DNA of 42,580 nucleotides. Source: a virus. The stretch spans positions 1-42,580 of IMG/VR virus record IMGVR_UViG_3300027841_000055; one strand, written 5' to 3'. Numbering within the stretch: the first letter of the stretch is position 1; every line of letters starts with the position of its first letter. Positions 14,024 to 36,609 of the stretch are shown piece by piece. The notes below the pieces were generated by a model. The model had not been told where the DNA came from, ran no database searches, and was given only the letters and a program-made list of their open reading frames with translations. The position numbers and the translations under genes were made by a program.

Positions 14024-15933
14024 AAGCAGTTGAGGCCGCCCTTATGGCAAAAGCACGGGCGCTGGGGCCGAGACAAAAACAGCTTCGCCTCCCGCCTCCC
14101 CCGGCCGTGAAAATCCCGGTGGAATTGGAACGCCAATACTATAAAGATCTGCGAGCCGAGGTTGTGGCCCGCCTCGGCAGAATCACCGAGCGCATTCTCG
14201 TGCCCGCCCTCCCTTCCCTTCTCAGGGGAGCGCGGGAGGATCTGCCCACGGTTGACTCGGCGGACGCCCGGCGGCTTGACTCATACACTCGTGAGCTTGA
14301 TGTGCTTATGAATGGGATGAGGATTGCCTACGCCACGGAATTGACGCCCGATGAAATCGAAGCCCTTGCAAGAAAATATGCGATCAGGGGCGAGAATTGG
14401 AACAAAACCGATCTCGCAAAATCCCTGCAGCGCGTCCTCGGGATCAACCCGCTTGTCGCCGAGCCTTATTTGCCGGCAGTCATGCGCCAGTTTATTGACG
14501 AGAACACTAACCTCATTCGCTCAATTGGTTCGGAATTCTTTGGAAAGATCCAGCAAGACACCTATAAATATATTCAAGAAGGCGTTTACAACAAGGAATA
14601 CGCGAAGCAAATTAGCGCGGAATTCTCTGAGGAATTCAAGCGCCAATATGAGCGGGGCATTCTGAAGCGCCGGGTGACAAATGCCGACGCAAGGGCTCGC
14701 CTCATAGCTCGGGATCAGATCTCAAAATACAACGGACAGTTGAACCAAACGCGGCAAACTGCACTCGGGATCACAAAATACCGTTGGGTGACCGTTGGGG
14801 ATGATCGCGTCCGAGAATCACACCGCTCAAAAAACGGCAAGATCTACTCATGGAACGATCCACCCGCCGATACGGGGCATCCGGGGGATGACTACCAATG
14901 TTTTCCGGCTGACACTTCAGTTGACCTTTGTTTTGATGCAATGAAAGGTTTCCGCCGTTGGTATGACGGAAAATTGGCCTTTATCGTCACGGATTCTGGT
15001 GAATCGGTCAGATGCACACCTAATCACCCATTTCTCACCAACCGAGGATGGATTGCCGCAAAGGATCTCAAGGAAGGAGACTATCTCTTCAAGATTTCCC
15101 AAAAAACACTCGTCCCGTTGGAAGTCAATATTTACAAATGCAAAACCACGATTGACCACAAATTCAGACTTCTTGAAAAATTTGGGATTGGTCAAACGGC
15201 TAGCGGCACGCTTAGAGACTTCCACGGCGATGGAACCGAAAACGAGATCGATGTTGTATCGGCCCAACGCAACCTGGTGGGAGGAATGAATTCCCTTCAA
15301 AGCCAGGGCCGCCATCAATTCGGATTCTCCGAACCCGACTCTCCGGGAGCGGCTCGCAGCAATCTTTTCAACGGTCTCATTGCTCTTCTTTTTCCCTTTG
15401 CTCGCCTTGTGTGCCTTATCAGTCAAGCTCATTCTTTCTTCCTTGGAAAGCCGAGCCATCCTGATAAAACCCGCCTCGCTTATGTCCCTAATAGTGACTC
15501 CATTACGCCGCAAAATTCTTCTAATCGGAGTCCTAGAAACCCCTACCTCGATACTGATCGCCAATTCGCTGACGCCAGCCTGATACATCGAAACGATCTT
15601 GGCCTGGTCGAGTTTGAGGGGGGAGCAATCCCTTCGGAATTTATTGATCCCAGGATTGATCCCGAATTCTCTCAGTTTCTCGCTCAGATTGCTGTAACAG
15701 ACTCCCAACTTCTCGGCGACTTCCTTCAGAGTAAGCCCTTCGGATATGAGCTTTGCCGCATATCTGAGGTTAGTTTCCGTGAATTTTCCGGCCATGTTTA
15801 CAACCTCGAAACGAAAAAAGGATGGTTCATTGCCCAGGACTTTATCACGAAAAACTGTCGCTGTACATCCGTTGCCGTTTTCGACGAGGGAGTGACAGAA
15901 AACCCGACACTATTGGGCTTATTGAATTCGTGA
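14020..15933 (+). CDS. MuF/SPP1 gp7-like head morphogenesis protein interrupted by an intein
   Basis: Minor head protein made after the portal. The 637-codon precursor should splice to about 318 residues, the usual size for this family. ATG 14020 is preferred over 13987 because it forms an ATGA with the portal stop and follows AGGGAG. The N-extein ends in the family motif region: WVTVGDDRVRESHRSKNGKI, then HPGDDYQ. The C-extein resumes with CRCTSVAVFDEG, so the joined motif reads DDYQ-CRC as in uninterrupted homologues. The intein takes residues 294-612 of this numbering. Splicing must work for the phage to make a normal head protein. Confidence 0.9.
   Translation: MKAVEAALMAKARALGPRQKQLRLPPPPAVKIPVELERQYYKDLRAEVVARLGRITERILVPALPSLLRGAREDLPTVDSADARRLDSYTRELDVLMNGMRIAYATELTPDEIEALARKYAIRGENWNKTDLAKSLQRVLGINPLVAEPYLPAVMRQFIDENTNLIRSIGSEFFGKIQQDTYKYIQEGVYNKEYAKQISAEFSEEFKRQYERGILKRRVTNADARARLIARDQISKYNGQLNQTRQTALGITKYRWVTVGDDRVRESHRSKNGKIYSWNDPPADTGHPGDDYQCFPADTSVDLCFDAMKGFRRWYDGKLAFIVTDSGESVRCTPNHPFLTNRGWIAAKDLKEGDYLFKISQKTLVPLEVNIYKCKTTIDHKFRLLEKFGIGQTASGTLRDFHGDGTENEIDVVSAQRNLVGGMNSLQSQGRHQFGFSEPDSPGAARSNLFNGLIALLFPFARLVCLISQAHSFFLGKPSHPDKTRLAYVPNSDSITPQNSSNRSPRNPYLDTDRQFADASLIHRNDLGLVEFEGGAIPSEFIDPRIDPEFSQFLAQIAVTDSQLLGDFLQSKPFGYELCRISEVSFREFSGHVYNLETKKGWFIAQDFITKNCRCTSVAVFDEGVTENPTLLGLLNS
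14899..15855 (+). mobile_element. Intein (Hint domain), 319 aa, in the MuF-like gene
   Basis: Splicing domain blocks are visible. Block A is CFPADTSVDL with Cys1 (codon 14899-14901). Block B is CTPNHPFLT with the TxxH (about 15013-15039), followed by GWIAAKDLKEGDYLF. Blocks F/G are GHVYNLETKKGWFIAQDF and ITKN with the terminal Asn at 15853-15855. The +1 extein residue is Cys (15856-15858). The residue before the terminal Asn is Lys, not the usual His. About 220 residues between blocks B and F show no LAGLIDADG or HNH motif. The endonuclease function instead appears on the opposite strand (14917-15795). Insertion at the invariant CRC of a structural gene is typical of inteins. Confidence 0.93.
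14917..15795 (-). CDS. Putative homing endonuclease encoded antisense inside the intein
   Basis: A 292-residue protein on the strand opposite the intein, occupying 879 of its 957 bp. ATG 15795 has GAGG (15804-15807) 8 nt upstream, placed in the codons for intein block F. Residues 8-45 (LTLKEVAEKLGVCYSNLSEK) and 62-105 (ELAISIEVGVSRTPIRRIL) are two helix-turn-helix units. Residues 128-152 are a basic linker. The nuclease part has GESE (Glu157), HQVALGRYNIDLVFG (Gln174, Asp183) and IAVEVSK (Glu192), resembling Vsr/EDxHD-like homing endonucleases. HTH repeats plus this nuclease is a known homing endonuclease layout. It would cut intein-less alleles and so spread the intein. Long antisense frames do occur by chance in this genome, but none of the others has these domains and a ribosome site. 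Confidence 0.8.
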   Translation of the reverse strand: MAGKFTETNLRYAAKLISEGLTLKEVAEKLGVCYSNLSEKLREFGINPGINKFRRDCSPLKLDQAKIVSMYQAGVSELAISIEVGVSRTPIRRILRRNGVTIRDISEAGFIRMARLSKEERMSLTDKAHKASKGKKKSNETVEKIAASRSRRVGFGESELMAALALKGIHSSHQVALGRYNIDLVFGSIAVEVSKRAASRLTNPKFFKKSEFVVNRGFAFVNIDFQRDECFLGNLEEIVSFLEILCGNPSSVGEKWVIRCASDRFTRIRDDKGQFSVIPTAETFHCIKTKVN

Positions 15934-17158: not shown

Positions 17159-18178
17159 ATGCAGACCGGATACAGCCTGACTCAGGGAATTGCGGCCGAG
17201 GGTTCGCTCGGTGATCTGGACAAACCATATGTGCGCTCGCACGTCAACGGCACCAGCGTCAAAAAGCGCTATACCATTTCGGTTGACGCCGCCGCCGACG
17301 AGGAATTGACCCTCACCCTTACCAGCCCTGCCGGCGTGGTGACAACGGTTGCCTATAATGAAGGTGCCGTGGGCACCGTGACCACAAAGCGAAACGGCCT
17401 CATTGCCGCTGTCAATGCTTCGGTTGCTCGCCTTTATTGCCGCGCGTCCGTCAAGGATGCCGATGAGCTTTACATCGAAAGCCTCGTGGCCGGCCAGGAT
17501 TTCACGGTTGCCGAGGCCGAGGGGAACCTCACACTGACAAACGACACCGCCCTGGTTTCCAATTCCACCGTTGGCTTTGGCTTGGCCGTAGCTCAGGGGA
17601 CACAGGATAACGAGTGCCGCTTGCTCGCCGCCACAACCGACCGCGTGATCGGTGTGACCCTGTTCTCTCATGCCGACAATATCAACAACGGTGTGGCCGG
17701 ATATGCCGCACAATCCGCTGTGAATGTCCTTCGCCGTGGCACCGTTTGGGTTCGCCCCGAGACTTCCGTTGCCGCTGGCGATCCCGTGTTCGTTCGCGCC
17801 GTGGCCGCTGGTGCCGAGCGCGCTGGTGCATTCCGCAACGCCGTTGATAGCACCGATTGCATTGCTCTCGGCGCGTCGAAATTCCTCACTAGCGCTTCCG
17901 CTGGCGGGCTGGCGCTGGTCGAAATCAACCTTGCTCAGGCCCCCATGACGACCATTGCGCCCCTCGGTGCAACCGCTGCATTCACCCTCACCGCCCCCGT
18001 GGCCGTTGCGCTCAATGCCGCATTTTCGGATGTTGAGGTTGAGGCCGGATTCCTGGCGAAGGCTGATCAGGCTGCCGTGTCAACCCTCATGGGATTGATT
18101 GAGGGAAGAATGGACGGGGCCGAAGGAAAGATCGATGCAATTATTGCGGCCCTTCGCACGGCCGGACTGATGAACTGA
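17159..18178 (+). CDS. Head decoration / structural cement protein (DUF2190-like)
   Basis: A 339-residue virion protein. The opening MQTGYSLTQGIAAEGSLGD is typical of the gp24-like structural cement proteins that sit on capsid surfaces. The central part (GVTLFSHADNINNG..., VRPETSVAAGDPVFVR) is the DUF2190-like beta domain with the AGDPVFVR string. An Ig-like insertion occupies about residues 35-130, and the C-terminus is a short helix (DGAEGKIDAIIAALRTAGL). AGAAGGGG precedes the ATG. Confidence 0.82.
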   Translation: MQTGYSLTQGIAAEGSLGDLDKPYVRSHVNGTSVKKRYTISVDAAADEELTLTLTSPAGVVTTVAYNEGAVGTVTTKRNGLIAAVNASVARLYCRASVKDADELYIESLVAGQDFTVAEAEGNLTLTNDTALVSNSTVGFGLAVAQGTQDNECRLLAATTDRVIGVTLFSHADNINNGVAGYAAQSAVNVLRRGTVWVRPETSVAAGDPVFVRAVAAGAERAGAFRNAVDSTDCIALGASKFLTSASAGGLALVEINLAQAPMTTIAPLGATAAFTLTAPVAVALNAAFSDVEVEAGFLAKADQAAVSTLMGLIEGRMDGAEGKIDAIIAALRTAGLMN

Positions 18179-35013: not shown

Positions 35014-36609
35014 ATGCCAACAAATGAAGCCTCTAAGGCGCACTTATGTGACCTATTTAATTCGGTCGCGGTGCGCGAATCCAGAAAATCAGAAGTGAAA
35101 TACTACACGGACAAGTGCATTGAAAACCGCGCAAAATACGAGGCATCGGGCGCGCCCCTCGGGGTTCCCTGGTATGTGGTTGGCATCATTGACGCGCTTG
35201 AAAATACGTTCGGCAATGGCTGGCTTGCGAATGGTGATCCCTTGACCGGCCCCACGGTGCGGGTTCCAATTGGCCTCGGGCGTGGGGAGAATTTCCCGAT
35301 CTCGTGGGCGCGTGGTGCCGAGCTTTCAATGAAAAAAGACAACCTGCACGAGATCGCCGATTGGAGTCTCGGCAATCTTTTGTGGAGGGTAATGCTTTAC
35401 AATGGCGACGGGTACATCGCGCGGGGCGTGGAAACTCCCTACCTTTGGTCATTTTGCACTCACTACACCAAGGGGAAATACGTCAAGGACGGCCCCGAAG
35501 GCTGGGATGCAAATGCCGTTTCTGAGCAATGTGGGGCCGCTGTTATCCTCTGGGAAATGGAACGGCGGGGCGTGATTGCGATCCCTCGTTCGCCAGGGGC
35601 AACGCCCGCGCGGTCGCCCGAGAATGTCGGCTGGCACAAATTGCAATTGATTGTAAACAACGTGCCCGAAACCATCCCGGCCGGGTTTCCCAAAATTGAA
35701 ATCGGATTTATTGCAAAACTTGCGGGCACAAATGACGACTACCGGCGCGCTCGTGTTGAGCTTCCCTCCGAATTCGTCAAGGCGTGGTTTTCTCAGTTTC
35801 CCAACGCGCACGACATCCGATTCACCGATGAGCAAACGAAATGGCCCGGCGACCTGGCGGGAGGGGACGCGCCCCCGGCCCCCGAGATCCCGTTGCCAAT
35901 GCGCCAGGGCGCGGCCGGCGCGGGTGTTTCCCGCTTGCAGGTTGAACTCAACCGAGCCATGGGAACCGGCATAGCGGTTGACGGTGATTTTGGCCCGGAA
36001 ACGCTCGGCAGCGTGCGCGCCGTGCAAGCCCGCCTCGGCCTTCCGGCTACGGGCGTTGTGGATCTCCCAACGTGGGACGGGCTCAAAAAACTGCCCACGG
36101 CCGAAGCAACGGGGTTCTCGCGCTCCCGGCTGGCGGCAATTATGCAAGCCGAAGCCAACCAGGAAAATACCTGGAACGGAAACGGGCGGGCCAAAAAATA
36201 CACCAAAAAATTTGAAGGCGTTTTTGGGAGCGCCCGATTTGCCTGGTGTGCCGCGTGTGTCACTTGGTGTTGCGAGCAAGCGGGGGCCAGGATGCCGGTG
36301 AGCGCACCTGGAACCGGGTACACTTTTGCATTGGTGGAAGCATGGCAGCAATGGGCAATCGCTCGCGGATTTTGGCATGACGGCACGGCCGGCATTGCTC
36401 GCGGTGACATCGTGATTTTTGACTGGGACGGGGCCGACTATCCCGACCGGGATCAGGAAGATCACATCGGCGTTGCGCTCGCGGGCGAATCGGGCGGCTC
36501 GGTGTTGTGTGGGGAGGGCAATGTGTCCGACTCGACTGCTACGAAAACCCGCGCGAAGTCTCTCATTCAAGGCTACGTTCGTTTACCGGACGGGTTTCCT
36601 GGAGCCTGA
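35014..36609 (+). CDS. Three-domain endolysin (lysozyme-like, PG_binding_1, CHAP)
   Basis: A 531-residue lysis enzyme with two putative catalytic domains. Residues 1-190 are a lysozyme-like domain (VPWYVVGIIDALENTFGNGW with Glu63 a candidate acid, and YLWSFCTHYTKGKYVKDG). About 296-355 are a peptidoglycan-binding repeat (MRQGAAGAGVSRLQVELNRA, VDGDFGPETLGSVRAVQARL). About 395-527 are a CHAP-type amidase/endopeptidase: ARFAWCAACVTWCCEQAG with Cys412 (or 415) and EDHIGVALAG with His484. No signal peptide, so it needs a holin. Two lytic activities in one Gram-negative phage enzyme of this size are unusual. Confidence 0.88.
   Translation: MPTNEASKAHLCDLFNSVAVRESRKSEVKYYTDKCIENRAKYEASGAPLGVPWYVVGIIDALENTFGNGWLANGDPLTGPTVRVPIGLGRGENFPISWARGAELSMKKDNLHEIADWSLGNLLWRVMLYNGDGYIARGVETPYLWSFCTHYTKGKYVKDGPEGWDANAVSEQCGAAVILWEMERRGVIAIPRSPGATPARSPENVGWHKLQLIVNNVPETIPAGFPKIEIGFIAKLAGTNDDYRRARVELPSEFVKAWFSQFPNAHDIRFTDEQTKWPGDLAGGDAPPAPEIPLPMRQGAAGAGVSRLQVELNRAMGTGIAVDGDFGPETLGSVRAVQARLGLPATGVVDLPTWDGLKKLPTAEATGFSRSRLAAIMQAEANQENTWNGNGRAKKYTKKFEGVFGSARFAWCAACVTWCCEQAGARMPVSAPGTGYTFALVEAWQQWAIARGFWHDGTAGIARGDIVIFDWDGADYPDRDQEDHIGVALAGESGGSVLCGEGNVSDSTATKTRAKSLIQGYVRLPDGFPGA

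Follow-up and report, generated by a model that had tools for sequence, protein, structure and literature searches.

Can a mobile intein have its homing endonuclease encoded on the other strand of the very DNA that codes for the intein? The question is raised by a gene for a MuF-like head morphogenesis protein in a virus record of 42,580 bases (the window, by which is meant the whole stretch of DNA that was analysed), in which an intein faces an open reading frame on the other strand. By the usual view, an intein either has its endonuclease in frame or has lost it. Our reading, to which we give a probability of about 0.9, is that the window holds a mobile intein with a homing endonuclease (HE) gene on the complementary strand of its own coding sequence, codon facing codon, for which we infer transcription, cleavage by the HE, and splicing of the intein. 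The antisense protein is judged to be real because of its domain content and of comparisons among relatives, and not because of the length of its reading frame.

The MuF gene and its intein

The MuF-like gene (13987-15933, plus strand; PF04233, E 2e-18; phrog_15127, E 6e-86) lies between a portal gene upstream and a DUF2213 gene downstream, and its product is 648 amino acids long including the intein and 329 once spliced. The 319-residue intein (14899-15855, plus strand) is inserted before the Cys of the conserved CRC motif of MuF, and its limits are exact because intein-less MuF homologues align continuously, without a gap, across the junction. The initial annotation had described the plus strand as a full intein with no recognisable endonuclease domain, and both halves of that description hold. 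Intein_splicing (PF14890) matches the insert with an E-value of 5.7e-9 and a score above the curated cut-off, and TIGR01445 also matches. The insert has Cys1, a block B (TPNH), a block F (GHVYNLE), Asn319 and Cys+1; judged from sequence, it thus shows the N-terminal Cys/Ser, TxxH, C-terminal Asn/Gln and nucleophilic +1 residue of inteins, as well as in-frame insertion at a conserved site for which intein-less alleles exist.

The predicted fold of the sense product is confined to its splicing ends. The N-terminal splicing domain (14899-15108, plus strand), which holds Cys1 and block B (15016-15027), is modelled with a pLDDT of mostly 75-95 over residues 1-70, and C1, T40 and H43 are invariant. 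The C-terminal splicing domain (15742-15855, plus strand), with block F and the terminal Asn (15853-15855), has a pLDDT of 81-95 and conserved H299, V300, L303 and N319. Foldseek searches with the AlphaFold model (mean pLDDT 55.2) matched RadA and RecA inteins with a probability of 1.00 but with E-values above 0.001, and a HINT fold is accordingly predicted for the ends. The middle (15268-15741, plus strand; residues 124-281) has a pLDDT below 50, is predicted to be an unfolded linker, and is the reverse complement of the HE gene; relatives lack a sense-codon signature there. Pfam, phrog and TIGR profile searches found no endonuclease domain in the sense intein, and with the middle also predicted to be unfolded an in-frame endonuclease-bearing intein was rejected.

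The protein encoded on the complementary strand

The HE gene (14917-15795, minus strand) begins with ATG, encodes 292 amino acids followed by a stop, and is codon-in-phase with the intein frame. Its AlphaFold model is confident (mean pLDDT 88.9) and consists of two helix-turn-helix (HTH) units, a nuclease core of helix and three strands, and a C-terminal hairpin. HTH 1 (residues 7-43; 15667-15777, minus strand) is seen as AlphaFold helices and in Pfam and PDB HTH matches, and HTH 2 (residues 64-97; 15505-15606, minus strand) resembles the HTH of gamma-delta resolvase and matches HTH_23 with an E-value of 4e-7, a significance reached by the window protein alone. In the family, the predicted separate DNA-binding region consists of one or two HTH units that precede the nuclease.

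The nuclease domain (residues 150-232; 15100-15348, minus strand) went undetected by Pfam when the window protein was used alone, and a family profile was required. A profile of 15 homologues matches 3r3p, the catalytic domain of I-Bth0305I, with an E-value of 7e-6 (3e-6 with another alignment), with further matches of family members to MTES_1575, a Vsr-like REase, and to DUF559. In Foldseek searches of the PDB, I-Bth0305I ranks second for the antisense model (probability 1.00, TMt 0.70, E-value 0.019). Profile and predicted fold together point to a homologous catalytic domain of the I-Bth0305I type. Its putative catalytic acidic residues are E157 (15325-15327), D183 (15247-15249) and E192 (15220-15222), all on the minus strand; D183 and E192 are invariant in 33 of 33 aligned HE rows, and E157 is kept in 32 of the 33. 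The initial annotation had proposed a minus-strand protein of this length with two HTH units and a Vsr/EDxHD-like nuclease motif, and had named profile and structure searches among its checks. The length, the HTH units and the nuclease likeness stand; the EDxHD histidine itself is not evident in the alignment, where Gln174 predominates at the aligned place and seems to be its stand-in. The C-terminal beta-hairpin (residues 255-291; 14923-15033, minus strand), with a pLDDT of about 92-94 over most of its length, is antisense to splicing blocks A and B.

Predicted expression signals within splicing codons

The start codon of the HE is the reverse complement of the block F histidine; in almost every locus it falls within the intein, 60 nt from its end. 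The ribosome site claimed for the minus-strand protein is likewise upheld: a Shine-Dalgarno GAGG (15804-15807, minus strand) is the reverse complement of the block F N-L codons, and most relatives have GAGGTT or GAGATT at this place. A weak sigma70-like promoter with an extended -10 (TGTACA-N17-TAAAGT; 15839-15867, minus strand) is predicted across the C-terminal splice junction, with a score reached by 6% of null stretches. A consensus promoter scan of the minus strand upstream of the HE start returned nothing in the window or in Salmonella phage sidste. In a weighted scan, sigma70-like sites fall in the C-terminal splicing segment or junction codons of many loci (mean null percentile 0.066 over 28 related loci); L120 is one of the relatives with TTGACA-N18-TATAAT in the splicing segment. 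The minus strand would thus yield the HTH and Vsr/EDxHD-like endonuclease from its own start signals within the C-terminal splicing codons.

Reading frame length and codon avoidance

Opposite three other genes of the window, at 12092-14023, 17159-18178 and 35014-36609, the in-phase antisense frame stays free of stops for runs of 333, 307 and 377 codons. Such runs are a composition effect, antisense ORF length is uninformative here, and it was dismissed as evidence; the initial annotation had rightly treated length as weak evidence and let the domains carry the case. When the sense protein was held fixed and its codons were resampled, an antisense run of at least 292 codons arose in 0 of 5000 trials, and in the converse experiment, with the antisense protein fixed, the sense frame stayed open in 0.08%.

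Each TTA, CTA or TCA codon in the antisense gene would read as a stop in the intein frame. Every nested HE, that is, every HE gene lying within an intein, has none of these codons, whereas the codon use of the phage concerned would predict 1-17 per gene. The probability of such a zero is about 10^-3.1 for the window and 10^-7 to 10^-10 for several Vibrio phages, values that do not multiply because the sequences are related. The freestanding HE of Acinetobacter phage IME285 has 12 such codons.

Selection on the two strands

Sense position 1 faces the wobble position of the antisense codon. Six groups of close relatives were compared: their exteins differ mainly at sense position 3, and the middle of their inteins mainly at sense position 1. 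For the N-extein of the Guernseyvirinae the counts at sense positions 1, 2 and 3 are 593, 402 and 1378, and for the middle 535, 115 and 258. Over the six groups, antisense omega (NN/NS) lies at 0.11-0.49 for the middle and mostly at 0.5-1.25 for the exteins; the sense omega of the middle, 0.42-0.66, shows relaxation relative to the exteins in every group except for one C-extein (G2). The comparison of both frames across homologous inteins, which the initial annotation had put forward as a test, therefore has the middle following the antisense frame and the exteins the sense frame. The conserved sense motif DFHGD is the reverse complement of the catalytic AVEV strand of the HE.

Elsewhere in the element the pattern changes by region. 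In the N-terminal splicing region of relatives both positions are slowed, which suggests dual coding, and the C-terminal splicing segment, past the HE start, mostly follows the sense frame, as do the exteins. The window has no close relative, and its own codon-position comparison is saturated; its antisense identity to relatives is about 0.33 versus about 0.20 in sense, and differences at the antisense wobble position exceed those at position 1 in 8 of 8 antisense-guided comparisons (p 0.03-0.34), an excess that fades with sense-guided alignment.

Relatives and freestanding copies

By tblastn, relatives of the antisense protein are encoded in 117 phage records at about 25-34% identity, mostly under genes annotated as head protein, and the sense intein retrieves largely the same records. 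About 30 distinct relatives, from phages of Gammaproteobacteria and Actinobacteria, retain both frames codon-in-phase. The carriers are phages of Edwardsiella, Klebsiella, Salmonella, E. coli, Pantoea, Cronobacter, Vibrio, Pseudomonas, Aggregatibacter and Idiomarinaceae, together with Gordonia phages and an actinobacterial assembly. In every nested locus examined the HE is opposite the head gene and in phase, and every homologous intein examined keeps the antisense frame, the loss of which in homologues had been named beforehand as grounds for refutation. One record flagged UNVERIFIED (L115) has both frames broken and is apparently frameshifted. A search of IMG/VR with the window antisense protein alone returned no relatives; for the contig scan single relatives served as queries, a profile of all 15 antisense proteins being too diverse.

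The element also occurs in other settings. E. coli phage fEg-Eco06 (L013) has a related intein with antisense HE at a second MuF site, N/CRARDG, upstream of the usual N/CRS. A portal-MuF fusion protein carries the element (L126, L127), and a further copy (L067) sits in a Mu gpF-like extein with an N/CSC junction; the number and order of HTH units vary among these portal-MuF and Mu gpF-like copies. In Acinetobacter phages a freestanding HE is found beside an intein-less MuF gene (L008, 455-1345; L129, 2501-3391).

The HE tree comprises 33 proteins, 31 nested and 2 freestanding. The freestanding HE of IME285 adjoins an intein-less MuF gene, the strand opposite it is full of stops, and it nests inside a well-supported clade of nested HEs (99/99). 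Because of this neighbourhood and this placement the IME285 gene has probably escaped from an intein; its tail, which in the alignment resembles the tail that is antisense to block B in nested copies, also suggests such an escape.

We think it likely, on these comparisons, that the window is one member of an old and widespread two-strand gene family, found in phages whose hosts belong to at least two bacterial phyla. Intein and HE would there be read codon for codon from opposite strands, the codons for C-terminal splicing would also serve as promoter, ribosome site and start codon, and the HE would be expressed independently of the late head gene. The arrangement would free the endonuclease from splicing and from head-gene timing, and it has been overlooked because annotators call the head gene only. 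It offers a long-lived and naturally replicated in-phase antisense overlap, where selection on the two strands can be followed separately in each region.

Mobility

Comparison of occupied and empty alleles points to recent homing. The MuF proteins of two Edwardsiella phages, MSW-3 (occupied) and PEi21 (empty), agree at 249 of 269 residues, and in MSW-3 the intein sits exactly before CRC. Salmonella phages sidste (occupied, L012) and horsemountain (empty, L131) are 98-100% identical over some 700 bases on each side, apart from a divergent tract of about 130 bases before and 60 bases after the insertion (about 190 in total). This is the pattern expected from break repair with co-conversion, and may be read as a homing-like footprint. 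In comparisons among several phages, the similarity of the inteins far exceeds that of the exteins (96% vs 67% in one example), though two Gordonia comparisons do not show this.

In the mechanism that we propose, the sense strand would be translated with the MuF head protein and the intein would splice itself out to restore MuF, its middle serving solely as a stop-free linker. The HE would cut MuF alleles that lack the intein, at the conserved N/CRC site or close to it, and repair off the intein-bearing phage would copy the intein together with nearby flanks. Sidste and horsemountain form a natural pair of donor type and recipient type, and such occupied and empty phage pairs could be used for direct homing tests.

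Alternative explanations

The antisense frame might be a functionless by-product of codon bias in the sense intein, as the 307-377-codon runs opposite other window genes would allow. Against this stand the HTH and I-Bth0305I-like domains, the fixed start codon and Shine-Dalgarno, and the failure of recoding ever to produce the antisense run; for the family it is refuted by the codon-position results, in which selection tracks the antisense frame, and by a freestanding homologue that faces no sense frame at all, so that we find a by-product scarcely credible. A fractured gene, with a split intein, an inserted endonuclease and a sense frame that is open only incidentally, has its appeal in Vsr-like endonucleases reportedly found in such genes, and we accord it a very slight probability. 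It was rejected on the single continuous sense ORF of the window and its relatives: the sense middle is open in all nested loci bar the apparently frameshifted L115, and the HE avoids precisely those codons that would stop the sense frame.

Two further explanations each seem to us quite unlikely. The antisense protein could be a real DNA-binding nuclease without being the homing agent, for instance a domesticated regulator or defence nuclease, with the intein spreading by other means; HTH units would equally suit a regulator, the EDxHD histidine is missing, and nuclease activity is itself a prediction from sequence. Yet the catalytic acidic residues are almost invariant, the protein occurs only with this type of intein or beside MuF, occupied and empty alleles differ by the element and its flanking tracts, and the nearest solved relative by profile is a homing endonuclease. 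The sense middle, for its part, could be a functional folded domain for which both frames are equally needed, as conserved sense motifs such as DFHGD might indicate. This motif is accounted for by the catalytic strand opposite it, however, the sense omega of the middle is relaxed with the one exception (G2) given above, and residues 124-281 have no predicted fold. A mobile intein with its HE gene on the complementary strand remains the reading that we prefer.

Comparison with known systems

No earlier description of an antisense endonuclease inside an intein was found in the open-access literature. The initial annotation, which knew of no description of the arrangement, is upheld for inteins in that literature, but an endonuclease hidden opposite or out of frame with another element has precedents (PMC9548176, PMC11855218). 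With conventional mobile inteins, which carry an in-frame LAGLIDADG or HNH endonuclease, the present element shares terminal splicing blocks, insertion at a conserved motif of an essential gene, and homing-type spread. It differs in that the endonuclease is a separate protein of the opposite strand and the in-frame middle is a predicted unfolded linker. Split inteins in fractured genes, accompanied by Vsr-like endonucleases and found mainly in phages, were reportedly described by Dassa in 2009. Both they and the present element join an intein to a freestanding Vsr-like endonuclease gene; the present intein, however, is unbroken, in cis, and nearly all codons of the endonuclease gene are shared with it from the opposite strand.

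I-Bth0305I, an EDxHD-family enzyme from a group I intron of a Bacillus phage (PMC3943268), likewise has its catalytic domain (3r3p), homologous to that of the antisense HE, tethered to a separate DNA-binding region; it is intron-encoded, and the EDxHD histidine is not evident in the antisense HE. The ShiLan element, an insert in a phage methylase with an out-of-frame HNH endonuclease on the same strand (PMC11855218), is likewise an in-frame insertion with its endonuclease hidden in a different reading frame, but that endonuclease is of the HNH type, shares the strand of its host, and is accompanied by no splicing domains. Nuclear group I introns carry antisense His-Cys homing endonuclease genes, for which expression and cleavage have been shown (PMC9548176), and there too the endonuclease gene lies opposite a self-splicing element; the host is an rRNA gene, whose sense strand, unlike that of the intein described here, need not stay open as protein code.
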